From Branchiostoma floridae (lineage: Eukaryota > Chordata > Leptocardii > Amphioxiformes > Branchiostomatidae): 64,000 nucleotides of DNA. Shown here in pieces: positions 3,160 to 37,690 of the stretch. A program made the position numbers and the translations under genes. Within the stretch, counting starts at the first letter, position 1; every line of letters starts with the position of its first letter. The stretch lies in contig NC_049992.1 in the NCBI RefSeq assembly GCF_000003815.2, positions 1-64,000 on the forward strand. Reading direction: 5' to 3'. A model generated the notes under the pieces. It made no database searches, was not told where the DNA came from, and was given only the letters and a program-made list of their open reading frames with translations.

Positions 3160-3209
<50 letters not shown>

Positions 3210-3253
3210 TGCCTGCCAGGCCTGTCTGTCTGCCCGCCTGTCTGTCTGTCTGT

Positions 3254-3318
<65 letters not shown>

Positions 3319-3357
3319 TGCCTGCCAGGCCTGTCTGTCTGCCCGCCTGTCTGCATT

Positions 3358-3388
<31 letters not shown>

Positions 3389-3410
3389 GCCTGCCTGCCT
3401 GCCTGCCTGT

Positions 3411-3445
<35 letters not shown>

Positions 3446-3454
3446 ACTGCCTGT

Positions 3455-3499
<45 letters not shown>

Positions 3500-4264
3500 T
3501 GCCTGCCTGCCTGTCTGCCTGTCTGTCTGTCTGTCTGCTGTCTGTCTGTCGGCAGTTTATACAGGCTATGATCCAGAGGCGCAGTTACGGCCGTTTGTTA
3601 CAGAGATCATTATCAGTGCAGGAGATGTCACTCACAGGCATATCTGTTGGATCTGGACATTCAAAACACCAACAAAAATCCCGCCACACCGTCTGCTTCA
3701 CCCTTGAGCAAGCGTCATCTCCAGCCACTCCCGTGTCAGAGGTGAAACGTTGACATTTCAAGAGTCTCACTCTCAATTAACTTAAGTGAAAGAACAAGTT
3801 AGACACCATTTCATGCTGACGTGACTCCGCGGTGGATCGGCACTGACATATCTACAACGTTGTCGTCCTGTTTATGCAAGGTGGGGACATTTATATGTAT
3901 AAATATATCAACATATATTTACTGCAATGAGTCAAGATCTCTGAGGAAGGTTTGCCACGCTACGTAAAAAGTTGTTACATATAGTTTGAAAACCTGAGAA
4001 GAAAGTGTGTAGCTGTTGTGGCTGCTAGCTGAGTTGAAAGAGACTAGACCAGTTTTCAACGTTTCTCTCACTGGATGTTTCTTGTTTTCGAGCACAACAA
4101 ATAACGATGGAATGTTAACAAAATCTTGTTCAAAAATTGAAGAAGTTTATTTGTGTGGGAAATGCACGTAAGTGTCACAGTTGGTGGGGTACCTTGCATG
4201 GGCGTGACCAGAATGTCAATCATAGCCTGTGAATTTATGTTTATTCGGGTGAGCGACATAACGT
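2417..4264. other. Spacer between glycine-rich gene and LOX-1 exons
   Basis: Apart from the CTGC/CTGT microsatellite at 3055-3551, I see no supported gene. A second AATAAA at 2941-2946 could be an alternative 3' end for the upstream gene. No counterpart of the LOX-2 first coding exon was found here by eye. Confidence 0.5.
3055..3551. repeat. CTGC/CTGT tetranucleotide microsatellite, about 0.5 kb
   Basis: Uninterrupted CTGC units are mixed with CTGT, CCGC and two CTGCCAGGCCTGTCTGTCTG higher-order interruptions (about 3213 and 3323). It keeps long ORFs open in several frames, giving Cys/Leu/Pro repeats. These are a by-product of the repeat, not genes. Confidence 0.95.
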
Positions 4265-8600: not shown

Positions 8601-11600
8601 ACCCTCCTTGTCCGAAACAACTTCAACGACCTGGACCAGACGGCTATCACCATGGTTACCAGGAAAGTAACAGGCACCCTGTGGTGTTCGGTTACATAAT
8701 GTTGCAAATGGCTTAGTACACGTACAGAGCTAGAGGGGCTCGGGTCACTCTAGAAATTTAGAAATGTGTTGGAATAAGAAAAAAACACAATAGTTGCCAT
8801 GAGTGTTAGACTACAACATATGAATGTAAACATTATATATTTTCTTGTAAATGTTACCTTTCTAGTTATCATTATTATTCTATATTTACATACGTTATGC
8901 CCACTCGCAGGCGGCTATGTGTGGCTAGTTCCAGGCGGCTGTTGCCTTCCCCAGGACGACTGGCACCCTCATGAGAGGCAGAAGGAGCTGTTAGTGATGA
9001 AGGAGCGCTACAAGTCCTTCAACCACACGGAAGGCCTTCTGCCAATGGTATGGGTGATCAATGTTTTTTGGCGACGCCTCAGGGGCGGAGCCGTTGGTAT
9101 AGTACTACGATTGAGTTGCCAGGAATTCTAATTATTCCACGAACGCATTCCCTAGAGAATTCGCTTTTGGCAACACCTTTTGCATATAAAATTTAGAAAC
9201 TGTAATTTCATTCTTGGGGCAAAGCATAGGCCGTTGCTTTTATGCACTATTGCAGGTTTTTAAAGATATATCAAATGATTTCAGATACTTTAAAACAGAT
9301 AATTTCGTTGCAATTGACATAAATTGTTGATGGTCACAGAAACAGAATTGTGAATTGTTTTAGGTTAGACATGAGTGGCTTTAGATTGTTTATGTTTCTG
9401 GTCCATGACCACTACCCCTGCCACCGGTAGATCTACTGGGAGATTAGTCGCGGATCTGCTTGGAGATATGTCTGGATACGGTGACTCGATTCTTCACTAA
9501 ATTTATCCACCCTCTTCGCTCTCTCCCACAGCTGAAGACACTACCTGCAGAGGCGTCTTTTTCGAAAGTGCAACTGGTAATTGTTACTTTATGTATGCTA
9601 AGCATTCAAATAGGAATCATTGATTAAGCTCGTCCGGACAAATTTGTTTTATTCACTTTACTTTACTCCAATTGTACGTTTGTTTGCATTGCATAACCGG
9701 TAAACCGCTTAAAGGCATAACATTAAGTTTCTACTGAAGAGAACGAGCTGCATGTCCGGACAGATTTGCTTATCCACTTTACTTTACTCCAATTGTTCGC
9801 ACACAGTCTACTTTGGTAGAGCTATTAAAATGCATCCCCTTAGGCCATGTTGATTTTATCATATGGATGACATCCAAGCGCGCATCAATTTTTGACAGTT
9901 TCCAAAATAAAAAGTAAAAAGAATTCAACCATACTCTAATTCATACCAAGAAGCTCCAAAATAAGCAAATTCATACCGTGGACTGCAAAACTAAACATCG
10001 AAAACGTATGCTAATGTCATAGAACATTGCAAGGTCACAGAAGATATGAATGAACAAAAATGAGGAATCTCTTGTTCGGTATACCATATTCTGTGTGTTC
10101 AGTCATTTGTTCAACCTTCCTGGCCACTTTGATTTCATAATGAATGCAACTTTTGTTTGGTCAAATTTTTTTATTCGCACGCTCGCATCAGTTTTTAGAT
10201 TCCCAGAGGATGTCGTCCATATAATCAAATCAGCCTGGCCTTATTTCTAAAATAAAAAATATTTGCAGGACTCCATGGTTAAGTCGGCGTCTATCCTTGG
10301 CATGACAAACTTGGACATTTTCTACGCAAGTTTCTTCCGTAAAGACGACGGCCGGTGGGAAACCTTCGACAGCATCGACCAAGTCTTCCCGCCAAGGAAA
10401 GTACCGAAGGTGGGTGAAATTGAACGACACAACAAATAGTTACCAACTTACCACCATCTCATGCTTGGCCTTTATCAAACAGGCCTTGGCAAACCGGCCT
10501 GGGATCTGTGCTTCTAACTTGCCAGTTTCCATACCTGGCTCCCGGAGCCTTTTTGGGCTAACTTATAGTACACATTTGCTGTTGAGCAGCCAGTCCATAG
10601 ACGACCCAAAAGGAAAAGATGATGCATCACCCCATACAAGTACCGTTTTCACTTACAAGAGGTTAACGGTGGTCACCGTGATGCAGTTAGAAGTGAGCTA
10701 TGAGACGTCTCCTGTCTCCTGAGAGAGACCGGTAACCACTTACAAGTGGCTCAGAGAGACGAGTCTCCGTCTCTCCGTCTCCGTCCTGTACAATGATACC
10801 ACGCACAGATACTCGCGAGACTTCGTTGACGGTACGAGATTTAGGGGCTCGGAAATTTTCAGGTATCTGAACCCCGGATTGTTGCCTCGTTTGGCCAGCA
10901 GCTGATCAAGTCGACCGATTCCATGGCGAGGTAAGCACCTTTTACTGATCATTTTGAAGTTAATAATCACTGCAACCCTCACTCGTTTGCCTTGTGAGTT
11001 TTTTTTTGTGACAAAGTGTGCGCGCTTCGGCCAGGCGCGGGTGAAGGGGGAGGGGGGTGGTACACACCACCACCAGTAGAAAACAAAAACAACAAAACAA
11101 TAATATTGTACATGTGATTGTGCTGATCGCAAGAATAGCCCACTGCTGTTGTTACTGGCCTGTTATAGCGGTCATTAAGCCCATGCATTTACAGTATTCA
11201 AATCAATTCACCTCAAACATGTAGTAAGACCATGAGTCGGATATACGATCGTTTCGATTCAAATTATTATCTCGATTTTGAGCTGTTCACTTTCAGAATC
11301 AAAATCAACCTGAATATACCAGAGAAATTGACACTCGTGTAGCATGTGGCAAGATGCAGAAAGCGCTATAGAGTACAAATGTATGTGGCATGACCATGAG
11401 AACATTTCCAAATCATAATGTTTGTCTCCTTGTGTATCAATTGAATGAATGGTCACAGATACAACCTTTGTCATTTTATTATAATCCACATATAGCTGAA
11501 TTGTCTCCAAAGTTTCTTGTCTCTCTCAAGTGTCATTGCATTTTCCCAAGGGTAGTCAGCTGTTTTGGAAATGTCAGGAATCTCTTTGTACAAACTATAA

Positions 11601-14600
11601 TTCTTTTTATGAATAATGCCTCAACATCTATGATATCCTCTGACAGACATGAGTGAAAAACAAATGAAATTGTTTTCCAGGTTGGAATCCACCCTGAAGC
11701 CTATTGAAGACATACACGAGATCACAAGATGGCGGCAGAGTGACCTAGAATGGACCAATCCTGTTCGATCATGCTCTATTTTGAACACCCACGATGGTCA
11801 AATTTGGCCGAAAAGTTTCCATTCGAACGCAGAGTATCGGGTTACCGGGGCTCCCGCGCGGTCCCCGCGGAGGGCTGACGGTGACTGAAACATCTTCTAA
11901 AATATCGTGATAGTTTGAAAAACAATCTCTCGCACGTGCCTCGTCGATATTAAATGAAAACTGGCAGTGTGTACACGTCAAATCTTACCGTGTACGTGTG
12001 CTACACAGTTTTGTCTCAATGTCTTCTGAAATGTGCATAGTTGGTTGATTTAGAATGGGTGTTCGGTGGGCCAAAAAAAGCAAATACCATATTTAGATTG
12101 GTCCTAAATTTGACTGAAAATCCAAATCTTTTATTTCATATAGGTTATGACATTAAGATCAAACTTTCTGTCTTAGGGATTTTTTTAACTTCTACTTAAA
12201 ACTATTTTTATAGCCAATATAAGGTCGAAAAATCGTCATTTTTTCACGTTTTCACGCTCAAAGACTCGTAATTCAAAATTGCCTCCATGTTCCAAAAATC
12301 CCTAAGACACAAAGCTGGAGATATTAGTTGTCGACAATATAAGTCCTGAAAGAGTTGATTTGCACGCGTTTTGCAAGCGATTTAAATACCATGTTTGGTC
12401 CTATGTCGAGTCGCACTGATAGTGACAAAGAGTAATTGATACCGCCGTAAACAAGTGTTGTAACATTCAAGGTCACCAATAATGACGCCAGCAGCTTTGT
12501 TACATGTCACATGTTCCAAACTAAGCGGCAGCAAAACTAAGCTTGCCAAATAACGGTTTATATTTGTGAAAATGTTTGTTTTTCTTCTGACACACGGCAC
12601 CCGGGAAAATGAGGGCGTTTGCTGCGTGTTTACTGTAACAACCTGCGGGTGACCTCGGATGACCCCAAATAGAACGCCCGTTCTGTTCGATCACGCCAGC
12701 GTTCTGTTCGATGGAAGTTGATTAGATGGCGGCAGAGTGACCTAGAATGGACCAATCCTGTTCGATCATGCTCTATTTTGAACACCTCGGTCAAAAACAG
12801 CGCCTGTCGGACAGAACTGTTCGCTTCCACTATTTAGCTGATAATAACGACTGACTTCAGTTTAGCTTTTTTTCACCCTGACCTCCTCACAGACCGGGTT
12901 GAAAAAAAATGTGCTGACTTCTTTGTTGAAGGTTACATCCACTGAGTACAGTCATCTGAGGAGGGGGCTGATATAGTTGTGGTAAGGGCTTTAATTTCAA
13001 TCAAAGTGGAAGCGGGAGGCCACGCATATCATTACCTTGTTTGTGAGCAGAAGTGTCTGGTTTCTGACATACAGTCAATGCACATGAAAACCAGGGTACA
13101 CCTATTTGTTACTGGGTTTCTACTGCGTTTGCTGCATGCATAACAGCGGCATGCTCATGATAAAAGCGAAATCAAGAAGAAAGCAGCTCAGGCACTCGTG
13201 GAGAGGGAGCTTGTACTATGCACCAACTAATGGGACACTTCTACAAAGTCTGCCAGTGCAGAGTCCCGTGTCTTATACATACCCTGCTCTACATGTGCAT
13301 CCTGCCCACCAACAATGTAAAGCTAATTGCAGTGGCTCTCCCTCCCACAGTACCTATACATGGTGGGTTTAGTCTTCAACAAAGAATAGCATAGCATTTT
13401 TCTTTGGCCATTTCTGTTCAATGATGATGATTTCTGTTCAACTGGGTATTCGAATTAGAATAGGGGTTGCATCTTGTTCTATTTGTTCAATATGACGTTC
13501 GATCGGGATTTGTCCATGATGACTCCCTTGCGAAACTGAATGACCTCGACGTTGAGGAAAGAAAGCAATACCTTTCAATAATACAACGTGTGTCATGCCA
13601 AAGGTAATTTTATATCTAACTAAAGTAAAGGGACGTTATTACATTTATTGGTGTCAATAATCCTACATGTTCTGGAAATGTTTTGTAACATCTAGTACTT
13701 TGGAAAGGTTTTAGTAGCTTACTAGTAGGAATGTTTTTTTTTATGAAGACAGATGCCATTTTGATATTAGTGTTGTTGAGATCTTTTAAAGCATGTATAT
13801 GTCATATATACATCCTTTGATTCCTGTGTTTGTAGATATTTCCAAAGCATAGTAAGCATGCCTGTATATTATAGTCTTACTGTATTTATAACTTCCAGTG
13901 CATACCGTATGCTTGGTAGTGTTGTTTATGTATTCAGGTGAGCTTTTAGAATACAGACATGAATGAACTGATGCATATGACTTTGGACAGGTGTTTGAGT
14001 AAGTGTACATGTAAATTTCCTCCTGGTAGGAAGCAGGAGATGGTGCTGTTTATGCAAGTCACACCTGTCTAGAATGATCAGACCACTGGCTTTAGTTGTT
14101 CACACTGAAGAACCACATGCTTGTAGAAAAAGATGAAATTGTTAGAAATCTTTGGGCAAAATGGATTCGGATACAGTCGAATCCGGGCCCATATTTTGCC
14201 ATATCCTTGAGGGATGCGATCAGATAAGGGCAGATGCGATTGGTTATGGATCTAAAATCTGACATTCGCCGGGTTCCGTACTTGTTTGGATATGGAAAAA
14301 ATATGAAATACGTATCTTTTGCAGCTGCGATAGAGGTCATATCCTTGCTGTAAAATACACTTAAATGTCTGTAATTTTCCGTATCCTAACCAACACGCAA
14401 ATCCCCACATTTGCCTGCGAATGCGCAGATACGAAAGGATTTTCCACCTTCTTAACCGAATCAGAAATCTGAATCACCCTGTATTTGCAATGTATTCGCA
14501 GATACGAAATTCAGAATTTTTGGATCCTAACCAAATTCAAAAGCAGTATCCCCCCACATTTGCAACGTGTATACAGATACAAAATGGGGATTTTCCTGGA

Positions 14601-17600
14601 TCTGAACCAAATGTTAACTGTGATTTGAATGCTGTCAGTGTAGAAACATGTATATGATACAATGTACCTAAGTGTGTTCATATATAGGATAATATCAGAC
14701 ATGACTTCTTTCCTTGTTGACTATGATTTTAATGCTGGCAGTGTTATACTAGATAATCATTTGTACTTAAGTACATGCTATTGTTAAAACACAACCTGTA
14801 CATATTGACTGTGGCTAGGTTAAAAATCAATGAATGGACGGGCCTCAGCCTACAGGAGAGACTAACCCTGGCTAGGGAAAGAAGAACCTGGAGGCAAATC
14901 TCGATCTTCATGTCTACCTTGTCCCCCCAACGACCTGGAGGTCAAGGGACTAGGTAGGTAGGGTAGGTAGGTAGGTTAAAAATGATATGCTGTCCCAAAT
15001 GCATTTTATTACTTGTAAGAGCTGTGTGCAAAGTGCTTGTATTGAGCCCTATTGTACATACATCTTTAATGAAAGATGTTAACAGCTGTTGACAATTCAA
15101 TAAATAAAATTTCCTGTTATCCAGTCACTGGCCTCAGAACTGCCTGTATTCGGTAGCAAAAAATTAACAATATTTTGATACCCCAACATACATACATACA
15201 TACATACATACATACATAATCATACTCTATCAAGTTGTATCATTAACAAAGTTCCATTTCCAGCATGATCTATTATTCGTCAGGTAAGGTCCCTATCACT
15301 CCAGTCTCTGATTCAATGAAGTTCTTTAGTGAAAGGACGGCCTCTTCTCATGTTTGCTTCTGGGACCAAAGTAGCAGTTTACCGGCTGGTTTGCAATGTC
15401 GAGTAACATGGCCAGCAAGGCTTTACCAACGTCACAACAGATCTTTGTTTCCTGTGTGTTCCTGCCAATGTTTGTTGTATTCTCCAAGCAGAGGTTGAGT
15501 CTGGGATTCTAGTACTGTAAATGCAGGTGGTTTAATGGTTTTTCGGGGTGGCCACTTCACCGCGAACTTAAAACCACCACGACCATTTTTCCATGGAAGT
15601 AAGAGACTATGGTGCGTGGTACAGCGAACTTAAAACCACCGCAAAAAGTCCTTTTTCCCGCTACCTCGAAATTAAATCCCCGAACTTAAATACATTTACA
15701 GTAGTGGCTAAATTTGGTCCTCTGGGTCAAAATTAGATATTGAAAACAATGTCCAATTTTCTTCAACATTATTTGGTGCGGAATGGTTCCCCGACATTAT
15801 ATATACAACTTATTTGTCGAAAAAGCTAAATTTGGTCTTCTGGGGCAAAATCTACATTTTTCGCAAAAAAAATATATCGCGAACCAATGTCCGATTTTAT
15901 TCAAACCAACATTATTGGGTGCGGAATGGATCCCTGACATTATGTATACAACTTATATGTCGAAAAAGCTAATTTGGTCTTCTCAGCCAAAATATGCATT
16001 TTTCGCCAAAAAATTAATATCGCGAAACGATGTCCAATTTTATTCAACCCACATTTGTTGGATGCGGAATGGATCCCTGACATAATGTATACAACTTATA
16101 TGTCGAAAAAGCTAAATTTGGTCTTCTCAGCCAAAATAAGCATTTTTCGCAAAAAAAATTAATATCGCAAAACGATGTCCGATTTTATTCAAACCAACAT
16201 TGTTGGGTGCGGAATGGATCCCTGACATAATGTATACAACTTATATGTCGAAAAAGCTAAATTTGGTCTTCTCAGCCAAAATATGCATTTTTCGCCAAAA
16301 AAATTAATATCGCGAAACGATGTCCGATTTTATTCAAACCAACATTGTTGGGTGCGGAATGGATCCCTGACATAATGTATACAACTTATATGTCGAAAAA
16401 GCTAAATTTGGTCTTCTCAGCCAAAATAAGCATTTTTCGCAAAAAAAATTAATATCGCGAAACGATGTACGATTTTATTCAAAATAACATTATTGGGTGC
16501 AGAATAGTTCCCCGACATCATATATACAACTTATTTGTCAAAAAAGCTAAATTTGGTCCTCTGGGACAAAATCTGCATTATTCGCAAGAAAATTAGATTT
16601 CATAAAACAATGTCCGATTTTCTTCAAACCAACCTTATTGGTTGCGGAATGGTTCCCTGACATAATGTACGCAACTTATTGTCAAAAAAGCTTAAGTTTG
16701 GAAGCAGCAGAACTGGCGCATGGCCTGTGACTCTTGTTGAACTTTTACTTTTGATCAAAACGCCTGAAGTAGCTGTAAATAGATAAATTTAAAAGTATGG
16801 ACGTTAACGTCTAAAGGAAGAGACAATCTTGAGGTCACTATAGTGCTTCATGTAGTACTATAGAAGTTGGCAACAAAGGCCAGGAAAGGCTAGCAGTACT
16901 AGTAACAATATTAGGAAGCTCAAATCCATGGATCCCTTCATATGAGAAAGACTGACTTGAGGGTTAAAGCGTGAGGGTTAATGTGTTTAAAGAATGAGGT
17001 GATGAGGGTCAATATGACTCTCTTTTTACAACCTATGCAATAAATGCAAACTGCACAAGGAACCCCTGTATGTCTGGAACTCCCCGTTGTGGAATGGCAA
17101 CTGCACAACTAGATTAAGAAATGTATAGAAAAGTGAAATATATGTATAGTATCACCGATGATACCTCACGTAGCGTCCTAACTGACCTAATAATTCATGT
17201 CGATCTAAGCTGACCTAGATGTTAAATGTCGTTTACCATGTCTGTTCCTTGCAAATCAAATATATCAAACAGCAGTTTACATGACGACTTTGTACAAGCT
17301 TAAGCATGAACATTTCATTTAAATTTGAAAGAAACCCTATTCTATTACGTTCGTTGCAAGTGAGATATGAAATCGTTCCAGCCAACCCGCGTTCCACTAA
17401 GCTCAACATTGTCCGACGTACAAAGAAACGTATGTTTAGACGTACAAAAATCATGTATGTTAAGAATTTATGAAGGTGAAAAAGACAATTTACCACATAC
17501 GCCTGTTAGGACATTTTTGTGCTATTCTCACTTTCTTTCTGAGTGTCTGTACTCAATACTTTAGACGGAGATGTGAACTTTTATCTAAAAGTTGCGCCCG

Positions 17601-20600
17601 AAATATATGATTTATTCTCCGAAGTTCAAATGTTAGTAACTCGATGAACAATTAAGATTATCGCATAGGGATTCATACAGGGACTAAGAAAGCTTTCAGA
17701 ATCTTGTAGAAAGAATTTGAGAAAAATCCATCGATTTCTGGGTGAGATATGAAAAACCAACATGTTCCACTCTCACGCAAGGCCGACCCGCGTGCCACCT
17801 GCTATCCAATTCTAGCGTGATTTAAACCGCATGCGACGGAAATCTCATTTTCTTCATAAATCATAAAGAGAGCGGAATTTTTCGATGCAATTTTCACAAC
17901 ATTAGGCCAATATCTCAATCTATCTGTTCCTCTTTTAGTTTTGCTGTACCATTAATCTGATTGAAGATATGAGTGTTACATATGTCTTCATTTTCGACCC
18001 CTACAAAAATGTTTACATCAAGTGGCGCTTATGGCAACTTTTCCCAACTTTTCTGAGTTTAAAAATCATTCATTCTACATAGATGATCTACAAAATGACT
18101 AAAACAGTCGTAATTTGATATTTCATTTTTTTACACAGTCATTTTAATGAGTTTTATTAGATATATTTACCAAAAAAACGATTTATCTATATCCAAGCGG
18201 TAATTCTTATTACTGCAGGGCGCCACTGCGGCGAAAATTAATCGGCTTCTTTTGCTGATTGTAAAACCTTTTTTTTCGTCAATGATAGTATACAAAAGTA
18301 GTCAAACCTCGTATTGTGGTATTTCATTCCTCCAGTAGTCTGCTCAGCGTGTTTGATTGAATGTACTTACAAACAACCGACAGTTATTAAAACCTAGCGA
18401 CTTTCCTCAGAACAGCAGGCATCAATGTGGAAAGCATTGAGGTCCATGGTAGTGTTTCAAGCCTTCTTGTTCAAATTAGCTTTCAGTTGAGTTGTGTGGT
18501 TTTCTGGATGCTTGCGGTCAATGTTAAAGGATATCAATAGCGTGTTTACTCTCAGTATATGTCATATGAATTTGAAATGAATCATTTTTGTTCTATAGGT
18601 GCAGAGCTTTCAAGTCAATTGTGCAATGGTAGGACTTGACAGTATCACTTAAAAAATTCAAAACTTCATGCTTTGGCTTTGTTTTCAATGAATATTCTTA
18701 CTATTGTAACTAACAATAGATTTTCTGGAAAGCTAAAAGAAACCATATAATTCTACTGTATCAACCTCTGGATGATTGCTGCTTATCTGTCCTATAAAAC
18801 TGTAAAGAAGCAGATTTTATAATCAAACAGACTACAGTTTCTTTTCATAGTGACTTGACTGATGCAGAATATTTAAAATAAACAAAATAACCCGCATATA
18901 AAGAAAGAACTGTATACTGTACTTGAAATAGACACATCTTTAACACCATTTTTTACAACAGGATATGATCCTTTGTGTTATTCCTCATATGTATAACAGT
19001 ACATGTGAAAATAACTCAAACTCGTGGATCATATCTATGNNNNNNNNNNNNNNNNNNNNNNNNNNNNNNNNNNNNNNNNNNNNNNNNNNNNNNNNNNNNN
19101 NNNNNNNNNNNNNNNNNNNNNNNNNNNNNNNNNNNNNNNNNNNNNNNNNNNNNNNNNNNNNNNNNNNNNNNNNNNNNNNNNNNNNNNNNNNNNNNNNNNN
19201 NNNNNNNNNNNNNNNNNNNNNNNNAGTGTTACTGACAGCATAAAATTTTGTGCATAAAGTAGTTCACATTGTACAAGTATGTACAAGATGCAAAATGGCT
19301 GCTTGCTAGCTTACCTTTAATGATACTACTACATGTATTATATAAGACAAATGTCTAATTTCTAAATTGAACTTACAAATTTCTACTACAATTTCAATAC
19401 AAATATAGCTGTGATTTCACATGCATCTGTATTAGAGTCACTGTAAATGTAACAAACTACAGGCATTGCAGAAAGGGTTTCTAAGTAAATTTCCACTAGC
19501 TATTTAATATTTTCATAGGCTCATAAATTAATTATCATTGCATTAGGACTTGGGCTGGTTCATAAATAACTCTTCCATGCAGGAACAGGTGCTCTAGTGC
19601 TTAGTCATACCAAGGAGGTTAAAAACTATTGTCCACTGTCACAACCATACAAGAACAATTGATCTAAGAACTAGGTTATAACAACAATACAGAAACATAC
19701 CAGTTGTGATGAATATGTATGTATGTGTGTGTGAACATGAGGGATAAAGACACAGTTTTGTTATTTGAATGCTTAGTGTTATCATAAGTTTCTAAGCAAA
19801 AAAATGCATCTTTGTCTTGTCACCTGTTGACCAACATGGAGTATCAATTTCCCTTTGTAGATTTTCATACGTGTATGAGGTTTGACACGTCTGTGACTCA
19901 TCACTCTTCAGAAACTGAATCCAAGCAAGGTTAATATCTATCTCATGTATCGATATAACCTCCTTGATCCTAGATGTCAACGCTCTCCACACAATCACAG
20001 TACACCGCAATCATTTAAAAACACAGACATACACACGCACGCATAAACATACATACATACACACACACACAATACCACTCCCCACACAATCACACAGTGC
20101 ACTCACCACAGTTATTGAAACACACACACAAACACACACAAACACGCACACAACTTAACAATCATTATGGATTTGCGGGTACTATGATTATTTTACACAT
20201 TTGTTTAAAAAAGTTAATATACCCGTTCTCACCCCATATGTGCTGTGAGAATAAAAGTGCCAAATATTTAATTTCATGAATAGCATCATCATTGCACATC
20301 ATCTCATCTGAATGCCCTATAGCAGAATTTGATACTAAAAACGTGCAAATATGTTTGATAAGTTATCGATCACATGTTAAATACCTTTTTTTATATACAT
20401 TGCATGTAAAACTCAGGTTAATCAGCCTTATTTTGTTCACCTGTGTGAAGCAAGTGGTGGAGCAAACAGTGACCTCTTTAGTTTGTATGTAAAGAATATT
20501 TAGGTTCTGTTGGAAAGAGTTTTAACAAGTTGTACATGTAATTTGTATTTCATAGGTATGCAGTTTTTGCTATGCACCAATCAATCACCTGTCATAAGAA

Positions 20601-23600
20601 AGATGTCTTTTGGTTTTATCATGCATATGCATAAGTCACAATCATGTTTGTTGCCACCCCCTATGTTACTAGAATTTGGCTATATTAACAACAATCCATG
20701 ATATCTGCATGAAAAATACTTCTTCAGATCTATCTATTTCATTGAAAAGTATTTTTAAAACTATATACTGATACTGTGAGGGCAATAATGGGGGTCAGAA
20801 ATCTTCCCTCCCAACATCTGCTTGAACAATATTGATATATGGTATGGAGGTAGAATGAGAATGTGACCTTGGGGATTCATATTCATTTTTTATCTGGTCT
20901 TCGAGATTTTTTTCTGGTCTTTACCAACTAAAAGTGTTTATTTTATGGTCCTATGTCATAGCATCAAATTCAAATGAGCTGCAAATGTACGGGCAAGGAG
21001 CGAGAAGATACATTTATGGTACATTTTATTTGGGGGATGAATGAATTGAATTGTAAAACAATTGTTTGAATAATTTTCATCCAAAAATGTATATTTTGCA
21101 CTCGTACAAGTAGCTCTTGTTCAAAGCCCGATGATCTCAAATTTGGTATTGGGACAGCCGTTAAATGTACACAAGAACAGAGCTTCTTGAATAGTCCAAT
21201 TGCATCACAATAACATTGTGCTCATTCCTAACTTTTGTGTTGAGTAATAGTCTGCATTAGCATGGATGGTTTGGAAAAATCCATTTTAGGGTGAGGCATT
21301 TTGGAAGTATCTAATTCTGCAAGGGAGAATCTTCAGAGTAAGTTCATGTTCCAATGGAGTAGAAAAGCACGTGAGAGAAATTTAAGTGTAAATTGTGCTG
21401 CGTGGTGTAGGAATGTGGAATAGAGACTGTATGGTTTGGACTCAGAGGTTTTTATACAGATTCTGTGATGTCGGATCTATTCGTATCGAGCAACTGCTTA
21501 ACCTGTCTCGGTGCTTCACCATACTATTGTTGCTGAGTAATTTTAACATACATGTAATTGCCCAAGACAGTAATGAGAGAAAAGAAAATCTGAATAAACA
21601 GCTGTCACAGTAATCCCCCTAGAGTCCATGCATACCCCAAAAGAAGTCTATTGCAAAAAGGAACTTATACCTATAGGTGAAACATTATAATCTGTTGGGG
21701 GGGGGGGGGGCATGTGAGAGAAATCCATGTGTAAACTGTGCTACATGGTGTAGGAATTGAGTTATCTGTATGTAGCAAAATTTATTGACTTTAATTTCTC
21801 TGTTATTTAGCCAGGGTGTCCCCAAATTCTCAGTGGAAAACACTACTTTACAGTCCAGGGCCCTGGAATGAATTGGATGGTATGACTACACACAATTCAG
21901 AGTAGCTTCATAAGTCAGCTTTCAAAATCATACAGCAATAGCTCATGGTCTGACTCGATTTGACTCAGATACACAGAAGAACACAGTGTCTAAGCATGAC
22001 CCAATTGTAAGTTTGGCGACAAAGTATTGCGTCATGGACATTCTCCTGTGCAGGGCAACCAGTAGGAAACCATGAGTGCTGACAAATATGTCACTCCCTT
22101 TTGGGGTCCATAACCATGATGTAGATCTCCATTGGTGAAATCAGATGATTGTTCTGCTACCTTAATGCGAATCGATTATTTTGCAGAGTGGGAACACAGT
22201 ACAAAAAGTATTCATCAGCATAAAGTGTATCATAAGATACAAAAACACCCAGAGATAAGACCATTTTTTTTCAAACGAGTTTGCTCAGTGTAAGGCCATC
22301 GACCACTGAACTATGCTCACTGTAGGCTGTGTAGCAGCATCTCTTCTCCCTAAGTTAGAAACATTGTGGAGCTAGTTTGACTCACTGACTCAATAGGCGA
22401 AGCAGAGGTTACGAGTTGCTTGTGAAATTCCCTTCCCCATTCTAACCAGAATGGTTTGATCCACTCCCACCTGGAGTTATGTGTTTTGACTAATTTGCTT
22501 CAGATGTTGAGATAATACATGTGTATAATCGTTCTTGGTTTAGGGTGGGTACAGAAAATTAAGGTACAGGTATGGTTCAGGTCTAGAGGATCAGGTACAG
22601 GTCCCCACCTATCTGTGAAAACTAATGAATGGGCGACTCAAAACAGTGGTCCATTTTTGCAACGAAAGATTCTATTTGGACGTTCATATGCATTTAAAAA
22701 AAAATTCTGTATGTCAACAACACTAACTGCCTCTGTTTTAGACCAAGTTTGACTGTAGAAGCTCGGTAAAAATGACTATCAACTCTCTACTTCACTGTCG
22801 TTCTTTTCTTGGATCTGTAAGCCCCAAAACATGTGAACGTCTGCCGATATAATCTGTTCATTTTGAATCGGTCCAACATTCAGTCCACTGATTTTTCAGG
22901 TCTGTTTTTTCTGAATCGGTCCAACATCCGGTCCACTGATTTTTTCAGGTCTGTTTTTTCTGGACCGGTCTAACAAGCAAAAAACGTTTTTTGTACCCAC
23001 CCCTATTCTTGGTGAGTGAAAAGTAAGGTACCAAATTTTTCTTATGGTGTTGTCCTGTTAGATCATAATGTTATTATGGTTTCTTGCAAATTCTTGCCCG
23101 ACAGCTAATTGCAATTATTATTATTTGATTTACAATAATAGGTGAAGAACAATATAGCCATTGTGTCACCTCTAGTCTGAAAACATTAACTCTAAATTCT
23201 TTCTGGAGAACACATCGATGTTTCAAAGGTCTGAATTCGATCCCAGGGTCGGCTGGAAAGGTTCAAGTAAAAAGGGAATCCTGTGTTTGAGGAGGTGCCT
23301 AGAGCACGTTAACAGCATTATTACTCAGATTGGGTAATTATCTACTGGCTGCAAATTAATACACCAAGGTGAATGAATGAGACAGTGAAAGACAAAGGAT
23401 CCCACGTTTTCTGTATTAACTGTACATGGATACCTTGGCAGAGAGTAGTTTTTCACATGAGACCCAATTGCTATATATGGGTCACAGGGGCGTGTAGTGT
23501 TGCCCATTTGGTATTTTTGGTACGAAGATGTCTAGGTGGTATAACACCAACGTTCAAAGCCGCCCCCCACCCCACACTTCGCCCCCCTCCCCCCAAAAAA

Positions 23601-26600
23601 GTGCGATTTAATACAGTACCATTAGCAGTTCAGTTCTGTGCGCAGCTGTACAAGAAACGTCCAGATTCTATCAACAACGTCCGCTACTAAAAAATGTATG
23701 GCGAATTATGTCACGGTCGCTGGGAAATGATGTAAGGTTACACAGCGGTAAAGGTTTACGTTTACCGATCGAACCGACCCTGGACCCGACCTCAAAGCTG
23801 CGATCATCTGCCGACGGCCGACTAGGGTTTGAAGAAAAGGCATATCTGCACTGTTTGCTAAACCTTAGCCTTTGACAGACATGTAGAAACAATACACCCA
23901 ACTCACTTTCTCGTTATATTCTTGTCCAAAATAACGTAAAACTACACTTTTCCTTGCATATTCCTAGGGTGTACGGCAATTTTGGGCCACTGGTCGTCTA
24001 GGTCAACACCAAGCGAGGTGACCCATGAACCCAAGAATGACCCAATATACTTGGTTACCCATCGAAAAACACAACACATGGAGTCTGACACACTCATCTC
24101 TCTGAGCCACTTGTAAGTGGTTACCGGTCTTTCTCAGGAGACAGGAGACGTCTCATAGCTCACTTCTAACTGCATCACGGTGACCACCGTTAACCTCTTG
24201 TAAGTGAAAACGGTACTTGTATGGGGTGGATGCATAGGGTCTTGCATGATGAAGGATGAAGGTTGTTCCTGTTTCCATTCTGTTGGGTTTAAGTTTATTC
24301 AACGAGCCTGGTGGTCATTTCCTCCCGTTGTTACGTCACTTTCTGGAATGCATCTGTCTCTGTTTGGTCGTCAATAGGGGAAGACGAACTGGAAAACCGA
24401 CGAGAACTTCGGCTCGCAGCGCCTGACGGGAACTAACCCGACTTCCATCCGTGTTTGCAGGGAGCTTCCCGAAGGGTAAGCTGGACTGAAACAAGAATTT
24501 ACAAAAGTACTATAACCCAATTTCAGTCTTAGAATTGCTGCCTCACCAGCCAGAAGTCACTAGTCTGGGTATCATCCAATTTGTACGAGGCTCCTCGCAC
24601 TCGTTGCCCTAGAAAATTGAAGGCAGAGAGTGCAGGGAGCCCCTGGTAGAAATCGGGCTCTGGTGGATAATCATGAAAAAGACACTAGGGGGAGGGGGTG
24701 TCTAGCTCAAACTCCTAGAAACAACTATCAAACCTTGTTGCTTGTACAGAGCCTGTTCTTGACCCCAGTTTGTCATATTCGTCCGCCCTGGGAATGCATA
24801 ACCTGCGAACTCAAATCTGTTCTCATGCTTATTTATGTGCGTGCTGCACTTAGCGCCAATTTTGACTTGGAAACCGCATAAACCCGACCTGTTCCTTCTA
24901 GTTGCAATGTACCTGTAACAATTGTTGTGCACTAAACTTGCCGTGACTTTCCAGGTTCGGAGTGACGGCGGCCATGATTGAGCCCTTCCTGTACGGCCTG
25001 AAGCTGGCAGACGCCCTGCAGAAGAACCGCCTGTACTACGTGGATCACACCATCATGGGGGTCACCTCCATGGCTAACAAAACGGCCCCCAGGCACGTGA
25101 GTACTCCGTTGTTTTCACGTTTTGCTCGCACACCAAATGGAAACTCTGCAAGCAGAGTTTCGGTTCCGTTTGTTGTTTGGACGTGTGGCGGACATAAAGA
25201 ATATGGGGCAGAATAGAATATATGTGTCTTGTATCAAATATGACATTCCCAAACTTTGCCACATTCACGGACGAACAGAAAGCCACATATCTCTTAAAAA
25301 CAAAGGACCCACAAAAAGTGGGGCTCTTCGTCTTCCGCTGCTTCCAAAAAAGAAGTCAAACCCAACCTATCTAGATCTATCCACCGCTAGTATTCGAGAA
25401 GTCTCTTTTTACAATAATGTTTTTACTGTTCATTGTCACATATATGCTCCCTATGTTTCCACAATGTACCTGCAATTAGCCTTTGAGCATGAACTTGCAA
25501 ATAAACTTTGTATTTAAGATGTGCGCCCCGTTCGGCCTGTTCTTCGTTAACGACAAGAAGGACCTGGTGCCTGTGGCCATCCAGCTGTACCCGAACACAG
25601 GGGAGGAGCAACATCCGGTGAGTGCCCATGCTATAAGCACGTTCGCGGTTCCTAGTACGCATGTCCAGTGACGGGAATTGTGGGTAATATGTCAAAAGAG
25701 AAGGCCCCATACATGTAAACAGTTCTCGTCTCAACCATTGTCTCGATTTGTATAACAGTGTTCAGACGTGCACTAAACAAAGTTTTTTAAAAAAAGAATA
25801 AAAAAGATCTGCAAAATTTTTAAAAATTAAAAAAAAAATCGGTTTTCAGGTGTTTCTGCCGAGTGACCCGCCCAACACGTGGCTGCTGGCCAAGAAGTGG
25901 TTCAACTGCGCAGACGCGAACTATCACGAGGCTATCCCCCACCTCGGTACGATTTATTTATCTATCTATTTATTATCAATCCCTTCCCTTCACTGAGTAG
26001 CTGATTTTCAAAGGAGCCCTTACAAATTCAGAACGTATCAGGATAAGAGGAAATTGATATTTATATAGAACTTCATTGGACAACAATTATACACGGTGCA
26101 ATGTATGGCAGCAACTCAAAAAGTACAAAATAGAAAAATATATACTTAAAGTTCATCTGTGACGGTAGTCAACATCGTGTTGCGATTTAAAATCCGTACC
26201 GAGACGGGGGCCGATACCGACTCCCAAGCACCTTTGACCCTTTGCTGACGTCACAATTTATGAACACTTCCACCCTGAGTTTGATAACTTTTGATAAGTA
26301 GGTATGGCTGTAGTGTTCCATGTTTATTTGTTCTAAGCTGGTATGAGTTTCACGAAATGTCATGATCGCCTCTTTGGCTCTCCTGTTCCAGGTTTCACAC
26401 ATCTGCTTGTGGAGGCCTGCAACCTCGCGGCCAAACAGAACCTGTCCATCTCCCACCCCATCCACCGCCTCCTGGAGCCGCATTTCATCTACATGTTCGC
26501 CATCAACAAGTGAGTCTGGACTAAGTATACCAAAACGGCCTCTGTTATGTAGCGAAACGACTTTTGCCTTGTAGCAAACGACTTTGCCATGTAACTAACG

Positions 26601-29600: not shown

Positions 29601-30883
29601 ATCTCCAGGGAGACAAGGCGGAAACAGTCCTCAATTCGTAAGTAAAATTAATGTCCTTGGTAAAACATCTATTACACACTGTCACACATAGCCAACCATG
29701 GCCTCCCGACCTTCTCCAGACCATGGTTGGGAGTTAAGACCCTGTCACACATAGACAACCATGGCCTCCCGGCCTTCTCCAGACCATGGTTGGGAGTTAA
29801 GCCCCTGTCACACATAGCCGACCATGGCCTCCCGACCTTCTCCAGACCAATGGTTGGGAGTTAAGCCCCTGTCACACATAGCCGACCATGGCCTCCCGAC
29901 CTTCTCCAGACCAATGGTTGGGAGTTAAGGAGTTAAGCCCCTGTCACACATAGCCGACCATGGCCTCCCGACCTTCTCCAGACCATTGTTGGGAGTTAAG
30001 CCCCTGTCACACATAGCCGACCATGGCCTCCCGACCTTCTCCAGACCAATGGTTGGGAGTTAAGGAGTTAAGCCCCTGTCACACATAGCCGACCATGGCC
30101 TCCCGACCTTCTCCAGACCATTGTTGGGAGTTAAGCCCCTGTCACACATAGCCGACCATGGCCTCCCGACTTTCTCCAGACCATTGTTGGGAGTTAAGCC
30201 CCTGTCACACATAGCCGACCATGGCCTCCCGACCTTCTCCAGACCATGGTTGGGAGTTAAGCCCCTGTCACACATAGCCGACCATGGCCTCCCGTCCTTC
30301 TCCAGACCATTGTTGGGAGTTAAGCCCCTGTCACACATAGCCGACCATGGCCTCCCGACCTTCTCCAGAACATGGTTGGGAGTTAAGCCCCTGTCACACA
30401 TAGCCGACCATGGCCCGTCCTTCTCTTGGCCATGGTTGAGAGCTAGTCGTGAACAAGGTCGTCTGTGGTTGAGAGTTGGTCGGCGAAGTTGCATGTTGCA
30501 AGTTTCTCGTTTGCTAGTCTGGAGCTAGAATAGAACACATTCCAGACTACTCCCGACACAGCACCGACATGGGTTGGGGAGCGGTCGGGCACATTGTCTT
30601 GGGGAGGTCTCAGTCATGTGTGACGGGCTTAAAACTGATTTCAAAAACACATTGCTAATTTAGTTTGGGATGTGATACCATGCCACTAGCCAAGTAACAC
30701 TTGCAATCACTTAAGTCTGAAAATAATATGTTTCGTTTCTGAAGTCTTTGTTCCCACCTGAATAGATTCCAGGAAGACTTGGCAAAGATCGCGAAGGACA
30801 TCGAGCATGAAAACTCCACCCAGCGGTTCAAGCCGTACGACTACCTGGACCCTCGCCAGATCCCCAACGCCATCAGCATCTAA
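4889..30883 (+). CDS. PLAT-lipoxygenase, tandem copy 1 (LOX-1)
   Basis: Non-heme iron dioxygenase of the animal lipoxygenase family, expected to oxygenate polyunsaturated fatty acids. Exons: 4889-5049, 5483-5652, 8911-9047, 9532-9576, 10269-10409, 24378-24475, 24955-25096, 25519-25617, 25850-25946, 26392-26509, 26776-26868, 27197-27257, 27651-27765, 28172-28251, 28717-28890, 29474-29637, 30766-30883. All joins are GT-AG and phase-consistent, giving 670 residues. The PLAT/LH2 domain spans about 1-112 and the catalytic domain the rest. Iron ligands in visible numbering are H357 and H362 (HEAIPH), H548 and N552 (QHAAVN), and C-terminal I670. Other family marks are YYRDD and [11 protein letters not shown]. 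The first coding exon seen in LOX-2 was not found, so the 5' end is open; Met at 4892 is the only in-frame start seen. Substrate and positional specificity cannot be read from the sequence. Confidence 0.92.
5255..5481. repeat. ATTC tetranucleotide repeat in LOX-1 intron
   Basis: Degenerate ATTC/CATC units run into the acceptor CCATTCCAG. LOX-2 has a much shorter ATTCATCC stretch at the same intron position (about 46020-46040), so the repeat was present before duplication and expanded in LOX-1. Confidence 0.9.
5660..6232. repeat. 20-bp ATTCAGATTCATGGTTCATG minisatellite
   Basis: About 28 units of a GATTCAGATTCATGGTTCAT-like monomer start directly after the LOX-1 exon ending at 5652. LOX-2 does not have this array in the same intron. 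Confidence 0.95.
6886..7429. mobile_element. TTAA-flanked inverted-repeat element interrupted by an assembly gap
   Basis: The left end TTAATGCCCCG...GTGTATATGGTGAGATAA is mirrored on the right by TTATCTCACCATATACAC...CGGGGCATTAA. TTAA stands outside both ends (6882-6885 and 7430-7433). The interior is 470 Ns (6922-7391). TTAA targeting is typical of piggyBac- and Kolobok-type elements; the class is inferred from the ends only. Confidence 0.7.
6922..7391. other. Assembly gap, 470 N
   Basis: Run of N inside an inverted-repeat element. ORFs that cross it are artefacts. Confidence 1.
7449..7740. mobile_element. Fold-back MITE, complete copy, about 292 bp
   Basis: Roughly 60-bp terminal inverted repeats start TTCACACG and continue through CAAGTCCGTA and AGCCTCTACCAG. 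The interior is itself palindromic, with TGTTATC-type arms around 7565 and 7625. It lies in LOX-1 intron 2. A partial copy is at 4652-4861. Confidence 0.85.
7755..7875. repeat. Short C-tract repeat (TTTTCGCCCCCC)
   Basis: Several CTCGCCCCCC and TTTTCGCCCCCC units, including GATCTCGCCCC and its inverse GGGGCGAGATC. Low complexity, not coding. Confidence 0.75.
9990..10240 (+). repeat. Dispersed repeat in LOX-1 intron 4 (copy 1)
   Basis: Shares TTCAGTCATTT, CAACCTTCCTG and CAGAGGATGTC with 39830-40070, and the last phrase again with about 42470-42500 just upstream of LOX-2. Family not identified. Confidence 0.65.
10628..10764 (+). repeat. Left terminal inverted repeat of the 13.6-kb element
   Basis: Starts CACCCCATACAAGTACCG and is the reverse complement of 24092-24228 apart from two transitions near the inner end. 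Confidence 0.9.
11727..11789 (+). repeat. 63-bp direct repeat, upstream copy
   Basis: Identical to 12724-12786, 997 bp downstream in the same orientation. Begins AGATGGCGGCAGAGTGACC and ends TATTTTGAACACC. The 0.93 kb between them has no recognised gene. Confidence 0.9.
12724..12786 (+). repeat. 63-bp direct repeat, downstream copy
   Basis: Second copy of the unit at 11727-11789. Its last 30 bp are also the left terminus of the TIR element that follows. Confidence 0.9.
12754..13475. mobile_element. TIR element (TGTTCGATCATGCTCTATTT), copy inside the 13.6-kb insert
   Basis: The left end CCTGTTCGATCATGCTCTAT...GAACACC and the internal phrases TCAAAAACAGCG, ATGCATCCTGCC-like and GCATTTTTCTTTGGCC recur in order at 48842-49124 in LOX-2. 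There the right end is an inverted copy of the left. This copy is longer and more decayed at its right end. Confidence 0.65.
15184..15220. repeat. ATAC microsatellite
   Basis: About nine CATA units. Confidence 0.95.
15513..15703. mobile_element. MITE with TACTGTAAATGC ends, 191 bp
   Basis: Ends are TACTGTAAATG...CATTTACAGTA. The interior has CGCGAACTTAAAACCACC and CCATGGAAGTAAGAGACTA motifs. A second copy, cut by a gap, is at 58945-59126 in inverse orientation. Confidence 0.85.
15706..16700. repeat. Satellite array, about 143-bp period, seven copies
   Basis: GTGCGGAATGGNTCCCNGACAT recurs at about 15777, 15918, 16060, 16207, 16351, 16495 and 16640, with GTCGAAAAAGCTAAATTTGG and CGATGTCCGATTTTATTC between. 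The central copies are more alike than the outer ones, the usual pattern of unequal exchange. The array starts within a few bases of the MITE end at 15703. ORFs across it are repeat artefacts. Confidence 0.92.
16701..19039. other. AT-rich interior of the 13.6-kb element, no gene seen
   Basis: No ORF longer than about 90 codons and no recognisable domain on either strand. No clear repeat structure was noticed. Confidence 0.4.
19040..19224. other. Assembly gap, 185 N
   Basis: Run of N inside the 13.6-kb element. Part of a coding exon could be hidden, but the flanks show none. Confidence 1.
20038..20155. repeat. CA-rich microsatellite
   Basis: Interrupted ACAC/CATA repeats. Histidine/threonine-rich ORFs here come from the repeat. 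Confidence 0.9.
22542..23003. mobile_element. TIR element (AGGGTGGGTACAGAAAAT), copy 1
   Basis: The left end AGGGTGGGTACAGAAAAT is matched by the right end TTTTTGTACCCACCCCT. The interior has repeated CAGGT/GGTCC phrases. A second copy in opposite orientation is at about 50154-50534. Confidence 0.8.
24092..24228 (-). repeat. Right terminal inverted repeat of the 13.6-kb element
   Basis: Reverse complement of 10628-10764. Ends GGTACTTGTATGGGGTG, followed directly by the GATGCAT duplication. Confidence 0.9.
25225..25518 (+). mobile_element. Retroelement-like 3' end abutting a LOX-1 exon
   Basis: Shares ordered phrases (CACATTCACGGAC, TTCGTCTTCC, CAATTAGCC, CTTGCAA(A)TAAACTTT) with 60385-60655 downstream of LOX-2. 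The AATAAACTTT end resembles a polyadenylated retroelement tail. The following TGTATTTAAG is the acceptor of the exon at 25519, so the element seems to supply this splice site. LOX-2 uses an unrelated acceptor sequence there. Confidence 0.6.
25850..25946 (+). CDS. LOX-1 exon with first two iron-ligand histidines
   Basis: Encodes [17 protein letters not shown] followed by NYHEAIPHL. The His-x4-His pair (H357, H362 in visible numbering) corresponds to the two helix-borne iron ligands of animal lipoxygenases. The next exon (26392-26509) continues with FTHLLVEAC and [13 protein letters not shown], matching the conserved core that follows in the family. Confidence 0.95.
26525..26720. repeat. Intronic GTAGCGAAACGACTTCTG repeat, LOX-1
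   Basis: Degenerate 20-25 bp units directly after the exon ending at 26509. A fuller array is at the same intron position in LOX-2 (53765-54005), so the repeat pre-dates the duplication. Confidence 0.85.
27005..27180. mobile_element. Relic of the TTAAGCCCNGTCACACAT MITE family in LOX-1
   Basis: Contains CGACCAACTCCCAACCACAG and a CATGG...GGCTATGTGAGACATGGG end, shared with about 54720-55010 of LOX-2 at the same intron position and with the element at 29672-30633. Confidence 0.6.
27405..27600 (-). mobile_element. tRNA-derived SINE family 2, LOX-1 intron copy
   Basis: Reverse strand: a decayed tRNA-like head around 27590-27510, then TGTGTCCTTGGGAAAGGCGC, CACGACTTTCCTCACTTCACC and ACGTCGGTTGTGGAGGT-type body. 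The same intron of LOX-2 carries a copy at 55480-55633, so this insertion pre-dates the gene duplication. Confidence 0.75.
27783..27886 (+). repeat. Dispersed repeat, copy 2 (inverse of 968-1066)
   Basis: Starts CCTGACTAAAATCGCG and ends GTGTAAACACAGG. See 968-1066. Confidence 0.75.
28500..28690. repeat. ATT/ATC low-complexity repeat in LOX-1 intron
   Basis: TATTATCATT-type trinucleotide-like repeat just upstream of the metal-site exon. It produces isoleucine-rich ORFs on both strands that are not genes. Confidence 0.9.
28717..28890 (+). CDS. LOX-1 metal-site exon (His and Asn ligands)
   Basis: Encodes 58 residues from [18 protein letters not shown] to GEPPKNK. QHAAVN supplies His548 and Asn552 as iron ligands, and VPNMP follows as in the family. 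The donor is the weak GTTTTTAAG. The exon is identical at all 174 bases to LOX-2 57800-57973, including silent positions. Confidence 0.95.
29276..29455 (+). mobile_element. LINE 3' tail with ATTC repeats, LOX-1 intron
   Basis: Ends GTACAATAAAGGTCTTCATT followed by short ATTC repeats, typical of CR1/L2-type LINE 3' ends. A homologous copy at the same intron position in LOX-2 (58311-58500) shows the insertion is older than the duplication. Confidence 0.7.
29672..30633. mobile_element. MITE whose left end is amplified into a minisatellite
   Basis: About twelve units of roughly 61-72 bp (CCCCTGTCACACATAGCC, ACCATGGCCTCCCGACC, GGTTGGGAGTTAAG) fill 29672-30420. The distal end ATGTGTGACGGGCTTA at about 30618-30633 is the inverse of the unit start TTAAGCCCCTGTCACACAT. 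The array is therefore best read as repeated copies of one MITE terminus. It lies in the last intron of LOX-1. LOX-2 has a gap and another MITE there. Confidence 0.8.
30766..30883 (+). CDS. LOX-1 terminal exon
   Basis: Encodes [16 protein letters not shown] to QIPNAISI and TAA. The C-terminal isoleucine, whose carboxylate is the fifth iron ligand in lipoxygenases, is present. The PNxIxI ending is a family hallmark and fixes the stop. Confidence 0.95.
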
Positions 30884-36413: not shown

Positions 36414-37690
36414 ATGTGTCTATGGGTAACTGTTAGATTATCTATGGGCACCTGTTAGATTATCTATGGGAACCTGTTAGATTATCTACAGGCACCTGTT
36501 AGAATATCTATGGGCACCTGTTAGATTCTCTATGGGAACCTGTTAGATTATCTACAGGCACCTGTTAGATTATCCATGGGCACCTGTTAGAATATCTATG
36601 GGCACCTGTTAGATTATCTATGGGCACCTGTTAGATTATCTATGGGCACCTGTTAGATTATCTATGGGAACCTGTTAGATTATCTACAGGCACCTGTTAG
36701 AATATCTATGGGCACCTGTTAGATTCTCTATGGGAACCTGTTAGATTATCTACAGGCACCTGTTAGATTATCCATGGGCACCTGTTAGAATATCTATGGG
36801 CACCTGTTAGATTATCTATGGGCACCTGTTAGATTATCTATGGGCACCTGTTAGATTATCCATGGGCACCTGTTAGATTATCTATGGGCACCTGTTAGAT
36901 TATCTATGGGCACTTGTTAGATTATCTATGGGAAGCTGTTAGATTATCTATGGGCACCTGTTAGATTATCTACGGGCACCTGTTAGATTATCTACGGGCA
37001 CCTGTTAGATTATCTACGGGAACCTGTTAGATTATCTACGGGCACCTGTTAGATTATCTATGGGAACCTGTTAGATTATCTATGGAACCTGTTAGATTAT
37101 CTATGGGCACCTGTTAGATTATCTATGGGAACCTGTTAGATTTTCTTTGGGAACCTGTTAGATTATCTACGGGCACCTGTTAGATTATCTATGGGCACCT
37201 GTTAGATTATCTATGGGCACCTGTTAGATTATCTATGGGAACCTGTTAGATTATCTATGGGCACCTGTTAGCTTATCTATGGGAACCTGTTAGATTATCT
37301 ATGGGCACCTGTTAGATTATCTATGAGAACCTGTTAGATTATCTATGAGAACCTGTTAGATTATCTACGGGCACCTGTTAGATTATTAATGGGAACCTGT
37401 TAGATTATCTATGGGAACCTGTTAGATTATCTACGGACACCTGTTAGATTATCTACGGACACCTGTTAGATTATCTACGGACACCTGTTAGATTATCTAT
37501 GGGAACCTGTTAGATTATTAATGGGAACCTGTTAGATTATCTATGGGAACCTGTTAGATTATCTATGGGAACCTGTTAGATTATCTATGGCAACCTGTTA
37601 GATTATATATGGGCACCTGTTAGAATTATCTACAGGCACCTTGTAGAATTATCTATGGGCACCTGTTAGAATTATCTATGGGCATGATTA
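36414..37690. repeat. 22-bp minisatellite, about 1.27 kb
   Basis: Roughly 55-60 tandem copies of CACCTGTTAGATTATCTATGGG with variants (AACC, CTACGG, CTACAGG, TCCATGG). Higher-order blocks are visible: the order of variants at 36480-36600 recurs at 36680-36800. No ORF. Confidence 0.97.

Follow-up and report, generated by a model that had tools for sequence, protein, structure and literature searches.

Among the closest described systems, giant KDZ elements of up to 30.3 kb with nested insertions are reported from a brown alga (Ectocarpus) in the available part of PMC12477816, which also cites a 31.7-kb giant KDZ element in Chlamydomonas, describes giant families that it presumes to be non-autonomous and mobilised in trans, and presents a proposal linking giant elements to long haploid phases. 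The accessible text of PMC12730594 gives 8-bp target-site duplications (TSDs) for Zisupton and a Dileera, 7-bp TSDs with CA..TG ends and no terminal inverted repeats (TIRs) for two Kyakuja families, and TSD lengths that include a 7-bp class for hAT7 transposons. In the available section of PMC9297572, proteins of the amphioxus Branchiostoma floridae are among the best BLAST hits of a nematode Zisupton. Here we analysed the first 64,000 nucleotides of the B. floridae contig NC_049992.1 (the window), in which a 13,601-bp element lies within an intron of a lipoxygenase (LOX) gene. Sequence comparison indicates that this element very probably belongs to the KDZ superfamily and is a giant, non-autonomous DNA transposon, because its ends match those of a 35.1-kb relative coding for a predicted KDZ transposase and because it keeps a broken KDZ exon itself.

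The KDZ superfamily, giant size and non-autonomous derivatives are already known from the available part of PMC12477816. Like the giant elements of Ectocarpus and Chlamydomonas as that source presents them, the amphioxus family has a KDZ transposase, a size above 10 kb, nested insertions shared between copies, extra genes and non-autonomous families presumed to be mobilised in trans; it differs from them in its animal host and in an internal 145-bp tandem array common across families. It resembles Kyakuja, a fungal KDZ group (PMC12730594, accessible text), in the 7-bp TSD and the CA..TG outer ends, and carries 137-bp TIRs whereas the two characterised Kyakuja families have none. A KDZ transposase, TIRs and, by prediction, many exons are shared with Zisupton, whose TSD in the same text is 8 bp and not 7 bp. 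A 7-bp TSD combined with long TIRs sets the amphioxus family apart from the three KDZ groups described in the accessible text of PMC12730594. The Tetris foldback element of Drosophila virilis (PMC4079207, available part) is, like the window element, apparently a non-autonomous DNA transposon containing tandem repeats (about 220 bp); in Tetris these repeats are located within the TIRs and occur in long satellite arrays as well, whereas the amphioxus array is internal. Judged by titles and the first lines of abstracts, no paper describing this family in amphioxus was found in the literature search, which did not extend to Repbase and subscription papers, where an entry may exist.

The two TIRs of the window element are 137 bp each with 2 mismatches between them, and GATGCAT abuts both outer edges (Table 1). 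Both features had been proposed in an earlier reading made from the letters alone (the sequence-only reading) and are borne out by sequence comparison; the span of 10621-24235 given there takes in the two GATGCAT copies. The genome searched comprises 513 Mb in 431 contigs; those encountered measure 17–35 Mb for C1 to C19 and less than 0.4 Mb for C175 to C300. At least 36 matches to the 137-bp end were found, with at least 31 exact copies of its outer 20 bases among the matches listed. Besides the window element, nine inward-facing pairs of these family-1 ends stand 7.8–14.2 kb apart and all nine share the window interior DNA, as the prediction of many paired copies required. Substitution divergence from the window copy in the aligned parts is 0.6–1.1% for the six nearest well-covered copies (C18, C204, C10b, C12, C3 and C10a), which points to a recent spread, 2.5–2.7% for C8, C9, C5a and C5b, and 0.2% for C13 over 414 aligned bases only; alignments of fewer than 300 columns and those overlapping a better alignment by more than 30% were left out. 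The disrupted copy C3 is not one of the nine pairs; like C204 and C5a, it lacks large internal stretches of the window interior.

An exact 7-bp TSD flanks 7 of the 11 same-locus family-1 pairs (the 35-kb pair included), with different letters each time, in line with the recurring duplications anticipated at paired copies; together with the exact tip copies, this recurrence excludes chance. The 8-mers at the ends match at 0–3 positions in all 11 pairs, so that no 8-bp TSD is seen. An all-versus-all comparison of 33 family-1 ends (528 comparisons, with about 0.03 exact 7-mer matches expected by chance) returned the 7 same-locus TSDs and 3 exact matches across contigs (C18 left with C4, C204 left with C12b and C204 right with C11); the ends of C8 and C9 have no 7-mer partner among the 33. 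The cross-contig matches have the appearance of single original sites whose two sides became separated, through either mis-assembly or recombination between copies. The near identity of the window TIRs had been taken as a sign of youth. Their two differences recur elsewhere: each of the nine other 13-kb pairs carries T133 in the same end, and five of them carry A98; both therefore predate the window insertion, and TIR identity is no clock.

Two observations concern single family-1 copies. The TIR variants 59, 63 and 88 occur at both ends of C5b and at one end only of C5a (loci among C5:1338200-1348100, L023, and C5:3685900-3701100, L024 and L025), a pattern that hints at end-to-end conversion or exchange between copies. 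The copy at C12:17114762-17129006 (L015, L016; TSD CGCCATG) interrupts an apparent coding exon, one flank of which matches Pfam PKD_channel (polycystin channel) at E 3.2e-7, while the other is open for 55 codons on the same strand without a Pfam match.

The sequence-only reading had predicted that one paired relative would encode a transposase, and the 35.1-kb element, with ends at C10:1733475 and 1768566 and CGCTAGC on both sides, contains a KDZ transposase domain. It was read as four pieces, and 123 of its 131 listed open reading frames (ORFs, at least 60 amino acids) were scanned against Pfam at E 0.01, leaving out four array frames in L043 and four overlapping or low-complexity frames in L044. 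KDZ transposase was matched in three ORFs at E up to 0.01. Positions 3-48, 51-100, 102-143 and 162-213 of the 217-position KDZ profile (PF18758) fall in four successive ORFs of one strand, with E values of 0.0051, 1.3e-7, 0.015 and 2.5e-11 in that order; segments 51-100 and 162-213 alone pass the curated cut-off, with 3-48 and 102-143 below it. They follow a cysteine cluster (L042:5357-5608) matching CxC2 (E 6.6e-9) and CxC1 (6.1e-8) above the cut-off and CxC3 (7.4e-5) below it. A cysteine cluster preceding the KDZ domain and the domain itself are features of the superfamily, of which the window holds an exon relic only. Each KDZ stretch has AG and GT no more than 60 bases away, in one case as GAG followed directly by GTAAGT, which is suggestive only; the domain, read here as unspliced ORFs spread over separate frames, is predicted to belong to a multi-exon gene. 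An ORF with a chromodomain (E 2.4e-13) and one with a GTF2I-like repeat lie downstream of the KDZ stretches on the same strand and probably form one second gene. No TET/JBP family was found in the 123 ORFs, and eight other Pfam families listed for them were judged to be chance or low-complexity matches. At C10:1765334-1765840 (L045:1935-2441, minus strand), an ORF resembles a GIY-YIG endonuclease piece of a Penelope-type element, which we take to be a nested insertion, probably, in the 35-kb element. Of the 137 TIR positions, 8 in one 35-kb end and 6 in the other depart from the window left end; the TIR plus the next 300 bases is 72% and 81% identical between the two elements, and interior matches are 65–94% identical and partly rearranged.

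The window DNA at 11594-11751 is 84% identical to the region of a KDZ exon in the 35-kb relative. This exon persists in the window as a relic in two pieces, collinear with the 35-kb exon (E 2e-11 in pairwise comparison); the source exon itself has no Pfam match. The relic and the matching ends imply that the window element arose from an ancestor with KDZ coding sequence, to which the 35-kb copy is related. The reported absence of a visible transposase or polymerase ORF was confirmed, as 87 gap-free ORFs of the window element (at least 50 amino acids) match no transposase family in Pfam at E 0.05. A coding interior was ruled out: the best match of the 87 is a zinc ribbon (E 0.0026), ten longer ORFs of the window and other copies were also scanned, and 357 of the 469 gaps in copy-to-window alignments (sums over bins) are not multiples of three. 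Neither an Rfam family nor a tRNA (ARAGORN, bacterial setting) was found in the window element. In C5a, a 393-residue ORF matches RepB-RCR_reg (E 3.7e-6) and overlaps an insert specific to that copy.

A second family was recognised by its tip. With up to 3 mismatches, the outer 20 bases of the family-1 end gave 114 genome hits versus 24 for a backward control, so that single tips at this stringency carry little weight. The tip CACCCCATACACATAGCGTT, which marks family 2, gave 29 hits at up to 1 mismatch versus 0 in the control. Nine family-2 pairs stand 12.6–21.0 kb apart; four have exact adjacent 7-bp TSDs, two more agree once 4 extra bases are admitted, one matches at 6 of 7 positions, and no TSD was seen at the pairs C1 and C14a. 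The TIRs of the two families show no meaningful match beyond the 20-base tip. The tip CACCACATACACGTAACGTT was tried as a third family and rejected, the DNA outside it being identical in the two copies read, which places it inside another repeat. On C300, a KDZ gene lies about 9 kb inside a family-2 tip; where the two match, its amino-acid identity to the C10 gene is 56–85%. C15 has another KDZ locus; it has long stretches (about 80–99%) in common with a family-2 copy, and its KDZ exons are collinear with the C10 gene at 41–67% amino-acid identity. Two family-2 tips at C300:17600 and 23731 point in the same orientation, 6 kb apart, with complementary 7-bp neighbours, an arrangement resembling an insertion with one side inverted. 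The family-2 copy at C14:6543000-6552999 (L060:1577-2020, 3195-4100) carries two 51-bp minisatellites besides its 146-bp array.

Several points weigh against a KDZ origin of the window element. Among 12 matches to the C10 KDZ exon and 12 to the KDZ profile, the C10 locus alone has family-1 ends, and the nearest other match, C6:25762287 (83% over 65 amino acids), has no listed tip nearby. The C10 gene is predicted from ORFs and may not be intact or expressed; the GTF2I-like match (E 7.3e-5) is below the curated cut-off. The C300 element shows one side only, the contig ending before the other, and at the C15 KDZ locus the 30 kb read revealed no tip and the second gene has a weak match only (E 6e-4). 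An exact 7-bp TSD is absent at C18, C8, C204 and C9 (4 of the 11 family-1 pairs) and, in adjacent position, at 5 of the 9 family-2 pairs; these gaps are only partly explained, by the three cross-contig matches and by allowing 4 extra bases at two family-2 pairs. Because the interiors are rearranged and partly unalignable, the window element is best read as a relative of the 35-kb copy and not as its direct deletion product.

P elements have a P-type transposase and belong to the class with 7–8-bp TSDs. The KDZ gene could be a passenger in a family moved by another enzyme that went undetected, of P type or of hAT7 type, both of which may leave 7-bp TSDs. Such a passenger gene would suit a TSD that departs from the 8 bp given for Zisupton and Dileera (PMC12730594, accessible text) and the single KDZ locus with family-1 ends among the matches listed. 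It is made improbable by the second KDZ gene inside a family-2 tip on C300, by the relic in the window itself and by the Pfam scans, which revealed no other transposase family at E 0.01 in the 123 of 131 ORFs of the 35-kb element and no hAT or P-type transposase among the scanned ORFs of either element. A composite of two small end-elements flanking 13 kb of host DNA would agree with the lack of a transposase inside, as seen by the sequence-only reading, yet the same interior lies between the ends of nine other pairs at different sites and the TSDs stand outside the whole unit in most pairs, so that this explanation is refuted for practical purposes and keeps hardly any probability. Polinton/Maverick elements are characterised by a DNA polymerase B, an integrase and a 6-bp TSD. 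The size and the long TIRs would fit a remnant of this or another self-synthesising group, an affinity raised earlier, whereas the TSD is 7 bp and not 6, and no polymerase, integrase or capsid family was found in the 87 window ORFs and the 123 ORFs of the 35-kb relative; the affinity is dropped, and its chance is next to nil.

Under the preferred reading of a non-autonomous giant KDZ transposon, a full element would resemble the 35.1-kb C10 copy, with inverted ends, a many-exon KDZ gene, a 145/146-bp array and a probable second gene coding for GTF2I-like and chromo domains. The derivative would retain both ends, the array and hardly any of the transposase gene, and would have acquired other repeats and increased in copy number. 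The KDZ protein would act in trans on the 137-bp ends, excising the element and inserting it at a staggered 7-bp cut, and an active KDZ copy would exist or have existed recently. The large non-autonomous DNA transposon of the sequence-only reading is thus upheld by the paired copies, the TSDs and the KDZ relative; the array as a passenger, the TIR clock and the self-synthesising group are not.

By monomer search (hits covering fewer than 110 bases left out), the array was found in 9 of the 11 family-1 copies compared, with 3 to 16 monomers; the 35-kb copy, counted apart, has 5. The fetched pieces of C5a, which has an exact TSD, and of C3 contain no array. Since it also lies beside two KDZ genes, the array is no passenger of this one copy; it occurs as well in the second giant family, with its almost unrelated ends. 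Genome searches scored 40 of 112 candidates with the window monomers and 40 of 107 with the 35-kb monomers, so that the listings are lower bounds. Window-type arrays at 84% identity or more are listed at 13 loci, nine in family-1 pairs and four (C175, C3, C11 and C1) less than 10 kb from a single family-1 end. The 12 loci listed for the 35-kb monomers at 88% or more are the 35-kb element, the C15 KDZ locus, the nine family-2 pairs and a C11 site 4.5 kb from a single family-2 tip. Nearly 30 other listed loci carry arrays at 71–80% identity; two of these share flanks (855 bp at 97% and 337 bp at 99%) and evidently lie in a larger repeat. The 35-kb array is 87–91% identical to the family-2 array, with little else aligning between the two elements, and 70–75% identical to the window array. 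This relationship runs counter to the grouping by ends, and either selection or exchange between families might account for it. Homogenisation within arrays was ruled out for the 13-kb copies, in which mean monomer divergence is 0.110 within versus 0.112 between copies; it is 0.028 within the 35-kb array.

For the array alone, and without bearing on the identity of the element, we lean towards a neutral hitch-hiker spread between families by recombination and without a role in transposition. The array-free pieces of C5a and C3, the variable monomer number, the closeness of the 35-kb array to that of family 2 against the TIR grouping, which may reflect exchange, and the nearly 30 loci with more distant arrays, of known context for two only, agree with neutrality. 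In the other direction, all 12 loci listed at 88% or more are in elements tied to KDZ directly (C10, C15) or via family 2, and two elements whose transposases have diverged both have the array after the KDZ gene. On the latter ground, and because the array is kept in two families that lost the transposase and was seemingly exchanged between them, it might instead be a working cis-acting part of a giant chordate KDZ clan, for example a platform bound by the transposase or by a chromodomain partner, which we consider rather unlikely.

At the insertion site, the exon match 10239-10432 corresponds to 49212-49399 and 24363-24512 to 50621-50770, so that the two exons enclose an intron of about 13.9 kb in one gene and about 1.2 kb in the other; this supports the size contrast reported between LOX-1 and LOX-2. 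Identity between the two genes is 83% and 88% in the flanking exons, and for this reason the insertion is likely later than the LOX duplication. The intron DNA adjoining the insertion has no match in the other LOX gene in the self-comparison of the window. Of three exon frames of the first LOX gene compared with Pfam Lipoxygenase, 26361-26510 matches (E 1.3e-7), 24947-25105 matches weakly (E 0.13) and 10251-10433 does not match. Tandem arrays of about 63–72 bp (29679-30445) and 66 bp (36419-37684) lie outside the element, near the LOX genes. Inside it, perfect 63-bp direct repeats border a 934-bp stretch private to this copy among those fetched (together 11727-12786); the repeats are far above the usual length of target duplications.

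Table 1. Features of the window element (window positions) and family-1 ends with 7-bp duplications on other contigs.
Feature	Position	Strand	Basis
Left TSD GATGCAT	10621..10627		End comparison
Left 137-bp TIR, tip CACCCCATACAAG	10628..10764	+	Self-comparison and genome matches
Broken KDZ transposase exon, piece 1	11664..11780	+	54% amino-acid identity over 39 residues to 35-kb relative
63-bp direct repeat, copy 1 (crosses from the exon into the insert)	11727..11789	+	Self-comparison
934-bp stretch without blastn match in other fetched family-1 pieces (E 1e-10)	11790..12723		
63-bp direct repeat, copy 2	12724..12786	+	Self-comparison
Same KDZ exon, piece 2, with stop codons	13530..13631	+	Comparison with 35-kb relative
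145-bp tandem array, 6.5 copies, common to most compared copies and KDZ-coding relatives	15764..16701		
1.6-kb stretch matching, at 83% identity and with the order inverted, the DNA that immediately follows the array of the 35-kb element	17375..18979	-	
Assembly gap (N)	19040..19224		
Right 137-bp TIR	24092..24228	-	
Right TSD GATGCAT	24229..24235		
Unpaired ends with cross-contig 7-bp duplications	C204:43028-53051, C18:3177688, C12:14053671, C11:23334862, C4:26007659		

Taken as a whole, a 13-kb intron insert seen from raw sequence has been tied to a probable transposase. The near-identical 8–35-kb copies whose TSD partners are swapped may mark chromosome rearrangement or mis-assembly. Amphioxus is not known to have a long haploid phase. 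Giant KDZ transposons with two sets of giant non-autonomous derivatives in this probably diploid chordate would weigh against the proposal, made in the available part of PMC12477816, that giant elements go with haploid life cycles. The amphioxus elements would also add a KDZ group that combines long TIRs and a 7-bp TSD. The tandem array travelling with the giant KDZ elements raises a testable question, and if its cis-acting role were true, a transposon clan organised round a required internal satellite would be new.

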